Below, piece by piece: positions 4,941-13,704 of a stretch of DNA of 20,386 nucleotides. The notes beneath the pieces are model-generated. The model made no database searches. It saw nothing but the letters and a program-made list of their open reading frames with translations, and was not told the origin of the DNA. The stretch's first letter is position 1, and every line of letters begins with the position of its first letter. The stretch is taken from IMG/VR virus record IMGVR_UViG_3300032117_000188, positions 1-20,386 of that record; one strand, given 5' to 3'. This DNA comes from a virus. The position numbers were made by a program, and so were the translations under genes.

Positions 4941-5632
4941 GCAATATTCCCTATGTTTGTTGTCCCAAGATCGGTAAATTGAAAGTTTGAGCCTAGCAAA
5001 GACGTTACAGTTCCAGCAGAATCTGTCACCAAGAGCTGAAGTCTCATGTTTGCTGACGGAATTATGTCACCCTCAATAAACGCTGAATAACTTGTTGCGT
5101 CCAATAGTCCAAAAGATACAGGAAACGTAGAAGTCGCTGCAGCAGTTGCGTAAGAATTGTAAATAGCAGATGTTCCGTTATTTACCTGAATTAACTGCAT
5201 ATTTGCGTTAAAAATGGTGAAATTGGACGTTGCTGAGTTAGAAAATGATACTGTAATCGTTCCAGCAGTCGCTTTTGTAAATAGCAAACTGTACTTAAAT
5301 TTGTACAAATGCCCTGACAATAGCTCTGGTCTGACAGTAGATGTAAAGAATTGACCGCCAGATGCCACAGTTGCGCTAGATGCCAATTGTGCGACTTGAC
5401 TTGCGTTTATGATCTGTCTGCCAGAACCAGTCGTTGTGTTACCTGTAATGTACAAAGATGCGCCATCAAACTCTTCTGCGCCTTGAACTGGGCTTGTCAG
5501 GTTTGTACCAGCCGTAAAAGTAACAGGTGCAACTGTTGTCGTTCCTGTTGTATACGCCAAAACGCCAGAAACAGTCAATGTTCCAGTAGTAGGAATTAAT
5601 GTATCTGTTACGTTGTTCTGGTTAATAGCCAT
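4937..5632 (-). CDS. Beta-rich virion/tail protein, unknown family
   Basis: A 231-residue protein, MAINQNNVTDTLIPTTGTLTV..., rich in Thr, Ser, Ala and short beta strands and poor in charged residues, the composition of phage structural proteins. The middle (GHLYKFKYSLLFTKATAGTITVSF, residues about 108-131) and the C-terminal half (FIEGDIIPSANMRLQLLVTDSAGTV) look like a jelly-roll or lectin-like beta sandwich. The N-terminal part (EEFDGASLYITGNTTTG) resembles segments of fibre-associated proteins that begin with a short attachment motif. It overlaps the following small gene by ATGA and starts just after the stop of the 91-residue protein (TAATCATGG junction). It could be a minor tail or receptor-binding protein; no specific family is recognised. 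Confidence 0.75.
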   Translation of the reverse strand: MAINQNNVTDTLIPTTGTLTVSGVLAYTTGTTTVAPVTFTAGTNLTSPVQGAEEFDGASLYITGNTTTGSGRQIINASQVAQLASSATVASGGQFFTSTVRPELLSGHLYKFKYSLLFTKATAGTITVSFSNSATSNFTIFNANMQLIQVNNGTSAIYNSYATAAATSTFPVSFGLLDATSYSAFIEGDIIPSANMRLQLLVTDSAGTVTSLLGSNFQFTDLGTTNIGNIA

Positions 5633-10111: not shown

Positions 10112-12328
10112 TTAGGCTGCAATTCTGCAGGAGAGTTCAGGGTACAAAGGCGCCCATCCGTACAACACATCTAAACGTGTTGGTATGGAATCGTTGTTAA
10201 TCGTGTACTGCATCTTGTTACTCCTAGTATTTCTACTAGTGGTGAAACCTCTTCGGATTTCACTCTAGGTCTTCTTTTGTTATAACCTAGTTCAGACTAT
10301 CGCATCTCCCTTGGGAGTTTTCTCACTTAGTCGTTCAGGCTGTATTTAAACTTGCCCCTTGTTGTCTGCTGCCAGAGTTCCAAGTCAATCAGAGAAAATT
10401 TTCTATTAGGTCTTTACCTAAAAGCCGCCAACATTAACGGACTACACGCATTGACAAACCAATTTCCTTATCACTAGCTCTACCTGCAAAATGCACACCT
10501 TCTGGAAGCTCTAAATCGGCTCATTTCTGTTACTTTCGGCTTTCGCCTACTGACCACTTTTGTGGCGGGAGAAACTCTTCGGATTCTCCTCTCTGCCTTC
10601 AATTCAGTTATAGCAGAGTTCAGACTATCGCATCAGCTTTCGCTGCCATCCCACTTAGTCGTTCAGCCTGCACGACCTTTTGGTCTGCTTGGCCCTTGTT
10701 AACCTCTTCAGGCACTCCAAGTCAATCAGGGACAGTTTTCTACTTACGCTGCTTGTAAGTAGCCGCAGTCATTTACGGCAAGAGTAAAGGCATTCCTGTG
10801 CATCATGATATTTTGTGGAGACAAAGTACCTGTGTTGTTGAAAGGTGTTACTACGGCTGTAGTTGAAGTAGAACCAATCACGATTGTGTTTTGGAACTGA
10901 CCACCAACGATAATTGCAGGAGAAACTTGAATGTTTGTTGCGCCTGTTCCTACTGTTGTAGTAGTTGTAACAACAAAATTACGCAGTTTGCCTGAACCAT
11001 ATGCTTGGCGGTTTTGTGGGTTAGTTGCATAGAGACCGGCAATTTGGATCACGTCACCAGCGTTCAATGTGCTTGAAGCAGATGCTTTGATCTGAATTGT
11101 GGAATACTGTGCCCAACCACTTGTCAAATAACCAACTTGTGCAGTTGTGTCAGCAGACAATGTGTTACCAGAGTATGAACCAAAAGTTTGGCTTACCACG
11201 TTTTGGTCAAGTTTCCAGTTTGTACCAGCTGAATCACGACCCATCAAACCTTTCCTGTATTGCTCCGCAATCGCTTCTTGGGGCATGAACAAACCTTTTA
11301 AGCTGTCAACGATTGTTGCAGATGTGAAAGGCTCAACGATACATGATCTACGTCCGTCTCTTGGTGCGCCTTCAGAATCAAGATAAGCACCAGCTGTTAA
11401 GTAGGTGATTAATCCTGTTGGAGGAGTACCAGCAACACCAACGATGTTCGCTGTGTTGAGAGCAGCAACGCTCAGACCATCTCTGTCAATCTTGTTCGCA
11501 ATAGCTGCAACTGCAGGCTTGAGAACACGATCAGAGAACATATCGAGTGATAGAGCCAAGTCTTGTGTAGTAAACTGGGTATCAACGTGGAACTGAGTTG
11601 ACAATGTAACGGGAACTGATGTCTCGTTAAAGTCTTCTACGTTCAATGCTGGGCCAGTTGTTCCTACAAATCTTCCAGGTCTCATTCTGTTACTTTCACC
11701 TTTCGGCTACTGACCATTTCTGGCGGTTCAAGCTCTTCGGCTCAAACTCTGCAATTTCTTTTGGTTATATGCAGTTCAGACTATCGCATCCCTTTCGGGG
11801 TTTCTCACTTAGTCGTTCAGGCTGTATTTAAACTTGCCCCTTGTTACCCACTTCTGGGACTCCAAGTCAATCAGAGAAACTTTTACGTCCGCACACCTGT
11901 ACTTTTTACGGACGTTAACTGTGTTGCCAATCTTGGCGCCTCAAATACACAGTTAAGCTGAGACAGGCATTTATATCACAGCAAATTGGTCATCATAATT
12001 GCGATCTACTTCTGAAGTGAAAGTTACATTCTGTTACTTTAGTGACCTATTTCTAGGCGGGAAAACCTCTTCGGATTTTCCTCTGCCCCTTCTTGGGTTA
12101 TAGGGCAGTTCAGACTATCGCATCACCCTATTTCTAGGGGCTTTCTCACTTAGTCGTTCAGGGTGTCTTTCGACTTCCCCCTTGTTGTCCACTTCTGGAG
12201 TTCCAAGTCAATCAGAGAAAGTTATTCAATATGCGTTACCGCATAAGGGAGCAAACTGTTTACTCGTTTTCGAGAACCATCAAGGCTTCATTAGTAATTT
12301 TACTAATCGTTAGTAAATTATTACTCAT
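10112..12328 (-). CDS. Major coat protein (P22 gp5 type), split by four group I introns
   Basis: Five exons are read on the minus strand: 12328-12262, 12026-11908, 11682-10775, 10521-10437, 10210-10112. The first begins at an ATG with an AAGGAAA site. Joined, they give one frame of 425 codons plus stop, or about 413-414 residues without a stop-containing 36-nt stretch in exon 2; P22 coat has 430. Exon 1 reads MSNNLLTISKITNEALMVL, typical of the family. Exon 2 supplies TSEVDRNYDDQFAV and GAKIGNTVNVR. Exon 3 runs from RPGRFVGTTGPALNVEDF to MMHRNAFTLAV. Exon 4 gives ADLELPEGVHFAGRASD and exon 5 QYTINNDSIPTRLDVLYGW. Codons split by introns are restored exactly (T|TA Leu, GT|A Val). The exon 3 ORF alone, with its apparent ATG inside the 3' end of an intron, is not the whole gene. 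The protein forms the icosahedral shell on the scaffold encoded just upstream. Confidence 0.93.
10211..10436 (-). ncRNA. Group I intron D (coat gene, fourth)
   Basis: A 226-nt ORF-less intron. The 5' exon ends CCGU, pairing with the internal guide GCGG so that U.G marks the splice site, and the intron ends GTAACAAGATG before CAG TAC. P10 can form between CAGTA of the next exon and TGTTG before the guide. It has a P2 hairpin TTAGGT-aaag-ACCTAA, P7 strands in CTGAACGACTAAG and GATGCGATAGTCTG, a P8 hairpin CTCC-caa-GGAG, a P9-type stem TAGGT/ACCTA, and later stems GTGAAATC/GGTTTCAC and CTAGT/ACTAG. The same helices are kept with different bases in the other three introns. Splicing joins Arg (CGT) to Gln (CAG). 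Confidence 0.9.
10522..10774 (-). ncRNA. Group I intron C (coat gene, third)
   Basis: A 253-nt ORF-less intron. The 5' exon ends GCCGU, pairing with the guide GCGGC, and the intron starts AAATG. It ends GTAACAGAAATG, after which exon 4 starts with A that completes the Val codon GT|A. P2 is CTACTTA/TAAGTAG, a peripheral hairpin is GACC-aaaa-GGTC, P7 uses CTGAACGACTAAG and GATGCGATAGTCTG, P8 is CAGC-gaaa-GCTG, the P9-type stem is CTCTGC/GCAGAG and the last hairpin is CCAC-aaaa-GTGG. Without splicing the coat frame stops at a TAA shortly after the 5' splice site. P10 is weak, about two pairs. Confidence 0.9.
11683..11907 (-). ncRNA. Group I intron B (coat gene, second)
   Basis: A 225-nt ORF-less intron with the best P1 of the set: exon end CGTCCGU pairs over seven positions with the guide GCGGACG, U.G at the splice site. 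It begins AAAAAG and ends GTAACAGAATG, after which exon 3 starts AGA CCT GGA. P10 can form between AGACCT and AGGTGT with one mismatch. P7 uses CTGAACGACTAAG and GATGCGATAGTCTG, P8 is CCC-cgaaa-GGG, the P9-type stem is CTGCA/TGCAG, and the next stems are GTTTGAGC/GCTTGAAC and CCA-gaaa-TGG. Unlike A, C and D it has no evident P2 hairpin. A perfect exonic hairpin directly abuts its P1. Confidence 0.9.
11911..11956 (-). repeat. Perfect 10-bp inverted repeat spanning the insert and coat exon 2
   Basis: TTAACTGTGT, inside the stop-containing stretch, is the exact reverse complement of ACACAGTTAA, which codes for part of Asn-Thr-Val-Asn in the coat. The 22-nt loop contains a second small inverted repeat, GCCA and TGGC. 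The distal arm ends directly at the first base of the P1 helix of intron B, so the two helices could stack. Confidence 0.8.
11941..11976 (-). other. 36-nt stop-containing insertion inside coat exon 2
   Basis: Between GCT GTG (Ala-Val, end of the conserved DDQFAV) and GGC GCC AAG (start of the conserved GAKIG) lie twelve in-frame codons with three stops (TAA, TAA, TGA). Both flanks are in the same frame and fit a P22-type coat, where I expect about one residue between them, so 33 nt are surplus. Removing 33 nt after GAT up to a G would leave Val-Ile-Gly and would fit group I end rules (U before, G last), but no intron core exists here. How the full coat is made across it is unexplained. Confidence 0.85.
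12027..12261 (-). ncRNA. Group I intron A (coat gene, first)
   Basis: A 235-nt ORF-less intron. The exon 1 end GAGU pairs with guide GCUC, and the intron starts AAACAG. It ends GTAACAGAATG, after which exon 2 starts TA, completing a Leu codon (T|TA). P10 can form between AACT of exon 2 and AGTT before the guide. P2 is TATGCG-gtaa-CGCATA, a P5/P6-type hairpin is TCCA-gaag-TGGA, P7 uses CTGAACGACTAAG and GATGCGATAGTCTG, P8 is CCCTA-gaaa-TAGGG, the P9-type stem is CTGCCC/GGGCAG, and later stems are GGAAAA/TTTTCC and CCTA-gaaa-TAGG. Without splicing the coat frame ends at a TAA formed across the 5' splice site after 22 codons. Confidence 0.9.
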
Positions 12329-13308: not shown

Positions 13309-13704
13309 TCATTTTTCTTCGTTCTTTTTTGTATAAATTTCTGGATTATGAACAGGATACATTTTGTTTTTTGTAGGTATTCTGAAATCCATTCTTCCAT
13401 TTGGGAATTCATCATCTAATTGCAATACATGATGGGGAACATCAACGGCTACAGTTGTATCTCCATAACCAGTACCAGTTGGATGAGTAGTCAAATAAAT
13501 ATCAGGTTCACCAGCAGATTTAAGCATCTTTTCTCTTAAGATTTTTTGAGCATTTTCTTTTGATGTTCCATGATACAAACGAACATGACCTTTTTCATTT
13601 ATAGGCAATCCATGTTCAGTATATTTTTGTTTTTTATTAGGATTACGTTTTTCTAATTCTTTTTTAATAAATTCTTCTCTATTTTCGCTTGTAACTGTTG
13701 GCAT
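13309..13704 (-). CDS. Small ADP-ribosyltransferase-like protein
   Basis: 131 residues. After a Lys/Glu-rich N-terminus (residues 1-40), the sequence VRLYHGTSKENAQKIL (41-56) matches the first core motif of the ADP-ribosyltransferase fold (the H of H-Y-E type enzymes, here His45). IYLTTHPTGTGYGD (69-82) fits the second, with Tyr70 or Thr72 in the pocket, and VAVDVPHHVLQLDDEFPNGRMDF (85-107) holds an acidic group that could serve as the third. The fold call is by motif and moderate; the catalytic Glu is uncertain, and related KptA-type or inactive folds are alternatives. The start shares one base with the portal stop (TAATG). Lying between portal and scaffold, it could be an enzyme packed in or injected with the virion, or an early host-modifying factor; this is inference. 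Confidence 0.68.
   Translation of the reverse strand: MPTVTSENREEFIKKELEKRNPNKKQKYTEHGLPINEKGHVRLYHGTSKENAQKILREKMLKSAGEPDIYLTTHPTGTGYGDTTVAVDVPHHVLQLDDEFPNGRMDFRIPTKNKMYPVHNPEIYTKKNEEK

Follow-up and report, generated by a model that had tools for sequence, protein, structure and literature searches.

Group III introns of Euglena plastids are shrunken members of the group II lineage that have lost catalytic parts and depend on catalysis supplied from outside. Within group I, a core can be engineered to excise a foreign segment with the help of P1, P9.0 and P10, as in trans-excision ribozymes and spliceozymes (PMC4094466, PMC4509937), and tandem group I introns skip an exon in Twort orf142 and in the SIOphi polymerase (PMC11878797). 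We analyzed a 20,386-nucleotide (nt) phage record, IMG/VR IMGVR_UViG_3300032117_000188 (20.4 kilobases (kb), hereafter the window), whose P22-like coat gene is interrupted by four group I introns and by a short insert containing stop codons. The comparisons described below indicate that this insert is very probably a non-autonomous, coreless group I-type mini-intron that is excised in cis by the core of the downstream intron, which then excises itself. To our knowledge there is no natural precedent for a coreless mini-intron served by a neighbouring ribozyme; the open-access literature, with subscription journals mostly outside the scope of the search, yielded no natural core-less intron of this kind and engineered analogues only.

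Results

The coat gene occupies positions 12328-10112 on the minus strand. An initial annotation, made from the window alone, had noticed twelve codons with three stops between DDQFAV and GAKIG, with both flanks in frame. Direct reading of the minus strand from 11976 to 11941 gave the same result (ATA TAA ATG CCT GTC TCA GCT TAA CTG TGT ATT TGA). In intron-free coat relatives the segment DDQFAV-(V/I)-G(A/G)KIGNTVNVR is unbroken. The two motifs are thus adjacent in homologous coats; their separation there had been named as an observation that would count against an insert. Because the intron-free relatives read across without interruption, the insert is 33 nt long (11974-11942), and its removal restores the codon ATA as AT|A over the junction. 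The alignment with related coats therefore fixed the exact length, and it did so at precisely the boundaries of the 33-nt reading with group I-like ends that the initial annotation had offered as one option. The predicted mini-intron, ATAAATGCCT-GTCTCAGC-TTAACTGTGT-ATTTG (minus strand, 11942-11974), lies between GTGAT and AGGC, and its delimitation is supported by empty-site relatives, homologous inserts and full group I introns that occupy this site in contigs L117 and L118.

The homologous inserts were found by scanning DNA for DDQFAV with something other than the conserved Gly behind it, a pattern that 53 contigs matched. A homologous insert was present at the identical coat junction in 51 of them, making 52 distinct carriers with the window, among which there are 23 distinct sequences spanning the mini-intron and P1b, the P1 helix of the downstream intron. 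Insert lengths at this site are 32, 33, 34, 40 and 41 nt; since these cover all three classes modulo 3, in-frame read-through is excluded, and removal of the insert in silico restores the coat frame in every carrier. Homologous inserts in 51 further distinct contigs are also the reason why the insert is not an assembly error. The P1 loop of the mini-intron is different in L087, L109 and their relatives (AAATTAATCCT instead of ATAAA..), with the guide and the helix PX described below retained. The remaining two contigs of the 53, L117 and L118, carry full group I introns with identical 5′ and 3′ sites (GTGGT|...ATTG|AGG). These introns have their own P2 hairpin and core, and both contigs are without the intron that follows the insert in the window (intron 2). 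As full introns occupy the identical junction, the mini-intron is best viewed as the core-less counterpart of an intron found whole elsewhere. The common site and ends make it plausible that it descends from a full intron by deletion of the core.

The 33 nt parse as AUAAAU-GCCU / GUCUCAGC / UUAACUGUGU / AUUUG, and three helices were recognised on the minus strand. In the first, P1a, the putative internal guide sequence (IGS) GUCUCAGC (11957-11964) is matched to the eight bases that close the 5′ exon, GCUGUGAU (11975-11982), with one central U.U mismatch. The 5′ splice site follows U11975, where all variants have a U.G pair, and the wobble position of an Ala codon in the exon strand (T, A or G) covaries with its partner (A, T or C). 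The second helix, P10, is formed by GCCU (11965-11968), which sits immediately 5′ of the P1a guide, and the four bases AGGC that open the 3′ exon (11941-11938). It is 100% paired, and the wobble position of the Gly codon and its guide base run through five pair types. The third, which we call PX, is P2-like. Its 5′ strand, UUAACUGUGU (11947-11956), begins directly after P1a and forms 10 base pairs with ACACAGUUAA (11915-11924) inside the next exon, where four pairs show changes on both sides. This is the perfect hairpin reported in the initial annotation (UUAACUGUGU/ACACAGUUAA, 11956-11947 x 11924-11915), which is real and covaries among the phages. The exon strand of PX ends exactly at the start of the P1 of intron 2 (CGUCCGU...GCGGACG), so that PX adjoins that helix and occupies the place of P2. 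Intron 2 (minus strand, 11683-11907; 225 nt) has P1b at 11914-11907 x 11893-11886 and the core motifs TTGACTTGG and GACTA/UAGUC, and it is the proposed source of the core. It is separated from the mini-intron by a 34-nt exon (11908-11941, ..GAKIGNTVNVR) of conserved coding sequence.

The helices were counted on equal-length excerpts because MAFFT, applied to whole inserts, misplaces the PX strand. This choice of excerpts favours the structure, and for that reason the weight rests on slid and shuffled controls. Over 16 distinct guide sets, 95.5% of the cells in P1a, P10 and PX hold standard pairs; the maximum for slid positions is 47% and 0 of 500 shuffles were as high, counts that are not probabilities since the coat carriers are related sequences. 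The insert region folds better than 200 of 200 shuffles (z -3.07), and in minimum free energy (MFE) folds P1a, PX and P1b lie next to one another for 9 of the 10 variants tested. A 5′ exon U paired with a G of the IGS was found in all 23 coat variants and in all curated other sites described below. The inserts all end in G, with a covarying P10 between the 3′ exon and the guide, as in group I introns. A P3-P9 core of their own is absent: inserts of 29-58 nt are too small for one, and core motifs occur only in the downstream intron. The mini-intron is therefore not classed as a group I intron, a family whose defining feature is its own catalytic core.

These features bear on two other explanations. 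The first is programmed translational bypassing, a ribosome hop aided by hairpins, as in T4 gene 60 or the mitochondrial byp elements. The stops and the strong hairpin would fit it, and lengths that are not multiples of three are tolerated. The initial annotation had, however, found no matching take-off and landing codons, and we agree: the insert is preceded by GTA or ATA (NTA), and GGN always by TGA. In addition, a stop does not always come right after the would-be take-off codon (GTA AAT TAA in the L087 group), and P1, with its U.G pair, and P10 covary as group I guides do, at sites where full group I introns are also found. A bypass element is thus highly unlikely. The second explanation is a degenerate intron remnant that is no longer removed, lying in a coat pseudogene or a misassembled contig. 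It would account for a site and ends common to full introns, but it does not explain why three helices show compensatory changes, why the flanking frames are intact in 52 contigs and the frame is restored in all, or why the element recurs in other genes, and its probability is extremely small. An assembly error or a pseudogene, the plainer options of the initial annotation, were discarded on the same 52 contigs and compensatory changes. As judged from these comparisons, the 33-nt insert in the phage coat gene is real and is neither a bypass element nor an error.

The carriers also share the downstream intron. Intron 2 lies 34 nt downstream of the insert in all 50 carrier contigs that are long enough to show it, and an intron at this position was found in 1 of 69 coat relatives without the insert, taken as an unselected sample. 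The corresponding Fisher test (51 vs 69 entered) gives p ~2e-33, a nominal value given the shared ancestry. Since intron 2 exists without the insert in L036, L142, L151 and L176, the dependence is one-way. In several carrier records of 24-36 kb the sole core motif is that of intron 2. Across these sequences the coat mini-intron is obligately associated with the downstream intron. This association, the boundaries and the three covarying helices can be read directly from the compared sequences.

The upstream regions of 543 distinct candidate group I introns were then scanned for the same architecture, that is, P1a followed directly by PX and PX followed directly by the P1 of the intron. This constrained blind scan produced 36 hits at a score of at least 60, compared with 0.33 expected from shuffles; hits of a loose scan scoring below ~50 were mostly noise by the shuffle control and were excluded. 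About ten further sites beyond the coat site emerged, in head and portal genes (gene names for the first capsid family and the portal were assigned via PHROGs). They are the capsid site FxG|T (L232, L300, L373, L390, L397, L470 and L381, with L424 just under score 60), GC|II (L240), VDVD|CRV (L313), the portal sites PP|WNN, FQP|IEQ and EQS|RWN (L277, L357, L391, L269 and L366), RIG|YYG (L354), FAG|KYIPVP (L307) and QNA|EPTV (L318). A few hits over the threshold, such as L360 and L119, have no coding support and probably arose by chance. The L318 junction is confirmed by 321 contiguous nt in the major head protein gene of Tunturiibacter phage Tunturi_3, and junctions at other sites by the uninterrupted relatives L236, L238, L244, L364, L286, L311 and L239. 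A tblastn search of isolate phages with short spliced peptides of four other genes gave no match, and the empty sites for these genes came from viral contigs.

The site FxG|T repeats the coat result independently. In its seven sequences 100% of the cells are paired (slid maximum 37.5%; 0 of 500 shuffles as high), with two-sided changes in 12 of 19 pairs. The downstream intron is found here at three positions, after NEQV, QDPV or LQD, and each time PX pairs with the exon sequence that adjoins the P1 of that intron on its upstream side: in L390 and L470 it is CUGAUUUUG/CAAAAUCAG beside GAUCCCGU, in L424 it is bulged, and in the others it lies beside GAGCAGGU. The guide follows the position of the core, and this observation gives the strongest support for action of the core in cis. 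In L232, L300, L373, L470 and L381 a long insert, which may be a homing endonuclease gene, interrupts the core of the downstream intron.

This site also bears on a further explanation, in which the mini-intron has the same guide but a different intron copy, such as introns 1, 3 or 4 or the excised intron 2 RNA, supplies the core in trans. Near-identical cores do exist within the same gene of the window, and engineered group I ribozymes cut out short segments in trans through P1, P9.0 and P10 (PMC4094466). However, several carrier records are without any other core motif, the downstream intron is close by in all carriers that can be judged, and PX shifts with the position of that intron at FxG|T and adjoins its P1 at the well-defined sites. 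Excision in trans is consequently unlikely. A protein enzyme of the phage or the host could also recognise the hairpins and excise the insert, whose small size fits an endonuclease and ligase pathway. Against it, what is conserved is pairings with a U.G and a terminal G, at sites that vary freely, and the insert has a ribozyme and not a protein gene as its obligate partner, making an enzyme of this sort very improbable.

Arrangements with more than one intron were found in other contigs. L309 (4118-4450, plus strand) has a full group I intron at FxG|T and, after a gap of ~26 nt, another full one at NEQV, a pair that may represent the ancestral state preceding core loss. In a capsid-like gene of L429 (minus strand, 5161-5314) two coreless mini-introns of 37 and 42 nt stand in tandem before a single group I core; the frame is restored when both are taken out, and the first has its PX beside P1b. 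The portal gene of L277 (4658-5025, plus strand) contains two coreless mini-introns, at PP|WNN and FQP|IEQ, and behind each of them lies a separate group I intron. Taken together, the sites found by the scan probably represent a widespread phage class of dependent, guide-only introns that borrow a neighbouring group I core, in which a single core would be used first by one intron and then by a second, and in L429 possibly by a third.

The coat gene of the window has six exons, and removal of the four introns and the 33 nt leaves a single 414-amino-acid (aa) frame closed by a stop. Its product matches, over the whole length, P22_CoatProtein (PF11651; Pfam E 5e-32) and a major head protein family (PHROG 283; E 7e-71). 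Besides intron 2, the gene contains, on the minus strand, intron 1 (12027-12261), with splice sites placed by frame restoration and an Rfam Intron_gpI match of 26.6 bits (E 4e-4), below the gathering score; intron 3 (10522-10774), recognised by its U|...G| ends, core motifs and frame restoration; and intron 4 (10211-10436), identified by frame restoration and a weak Intron_gpI match (E 0.3). At the gathering score, Rfam had no match in the window and missed all four full introns (best 26.6 bits vs 50), and a lax threshold gave weak matches to introns 1 and 4 only. As Intron_gpI misses all four, this intron family is likely under-annotated. An extra group I intron of the coat gene, seen as a frame break after FHVD at ~+455 from the 5′ site of the mini-intron, is present in L090, L105, L110, L113 and L126 and adds another position for a core. 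Elsewhere in the window, a 131-aa open reading frame (13309-13704, minus strand) lies between scaffold-like and portal-like genes; its LYHGTS motif recalls ADP-ribosyltransferases, and it has no Pfam match.

Discussion

The initial annotation had proposed an unknown mini-intron with group I-like ends, and this option is strongly supported, including the predicted 33-nt boundaries. It had treated the insert as a free-standing element, without the pairings of the guide, the connection with intron 2 or the recurrence at other sites that were found here. We infer excision at the RNA level, use of the intron 2 core in cis and an order of events as follows. The mini-intron holds a full guide, consisting of P1a with its U.G, P10 gripping the 3′ exon and the terminal G, and is too small for P3-P9. 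P1a, PX and P1b would be aligned before the downstream core, PX standing where an ordinary intron has P2. The core would take P1a first, and P10 and the terminal G would complete the excision of the mini-intron and the joining of its exons. Loss of the mini-intron would remove one strand of PX and free P1b to dock, after which the downstream intron would excise itself by the ordinary route. As departure of intron 2 first would strand the mini-intron, PX may also set the order.

Several points weigh against this mechanism. A single core would have to handle two P1 helices in succession, and the mini-intron appears to have no P9.0 of its own to bring the terminal G to the G site. Skipping of the 34-nt exon, with the first 5′ site joined to the second 3′ site, could be a competing reaction. 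The MFE structure of L094 differs from that of the other variants, the second mini-intron of L429 is without a clear PX, and the relatedness of the coat carriers limits the shuffle counts as stated above. Such skipping is not taken to be the productive reaction, since the 34 nt encode conserved residues and the reading frame would shift without them.

If the proposed mechanism is correct, an intron need not bring a catalyst of its own, and this would hold beyond the group II and spliceosome lineage; a self-splicing intron can serve as the splicing machine for a neighbour that retains only its guide. Intron and catalyst would then have separated naturally within group I, much as in the transition from group II to spliceosomal introns, and the case would offer a simple, testable natural model for how introns come to depend on a shared catalyst, an old question in the origin of the spliceosome. 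Elements of this type could also serve as natural starting points for small RNA excision systems programmed by a guide. In genome annotation, a head or portal gene that seems broken by an insert of 30-60 nt before a group I intron may be intact.

The mini-introns can be compared with several known systems. The coat insert resembles the T4 gene 60 bypass and the byp elements as a short, stop-containing hairpin insert in a conserved gene, but it lacks matched codons (NTA before the insert, TGA before GGN) and has group I guide pairings and homologous full introns at its site. With the Euglena group III introns the mini-introns share dependence, although those introns belong to the group II lineage and their partner is not a neighbouring intron in cis. 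In trans-spliced or fragmented group I introns, function is likewise split over RNA parts, but there one core is split, whereas here one core appears to serve two introns, the mini-intron having none; moreover, the coat exons are contiguous, in one gene and on one strand, and not on separate transcripts. Group I twintrons and twin-ribozyme introns (Didymium, Naegleria) also carry out two reactions at one locus. They consist of two nested ribozymes, while here one core stands with two introns in tandem and, instead of an intron inside an intron, a 34-nt coding exon separates the mini-intron from intron 2. The exon skipping of Twort and SIOphi, like the present case, involves neighbouring splice sites and one ribozyme, but there an exon is discarded, whereas here the intervening exon, which is essential coding sequence, is kept. 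Trans-excision ribozymes and spliceozymes have in common with the mini-introns a core that removes a segment other than its own intron, with base pairing at both splice sites; they are engineered, act in trans and carry the guide on the ribozyme, whereas the mini-introns are natural, apparently act in cis and carry the guide on the excised segment. Finally, autonomous phage and bacterial group I introns share with the mini-introns P1 with its U.G, P10, the terminal G and even the sites, as in L117, L118 and L309. The mini-introns differ from them in being 29-58 nt long without P3-P9, in needing a neighbouring intron and in replacing P2 by a helix with the exon. They would thus constitute a new type of intron, without a catalyst of its own and dependent on a neighbour, in which the rules of splice-site chemistry remain those of group I.
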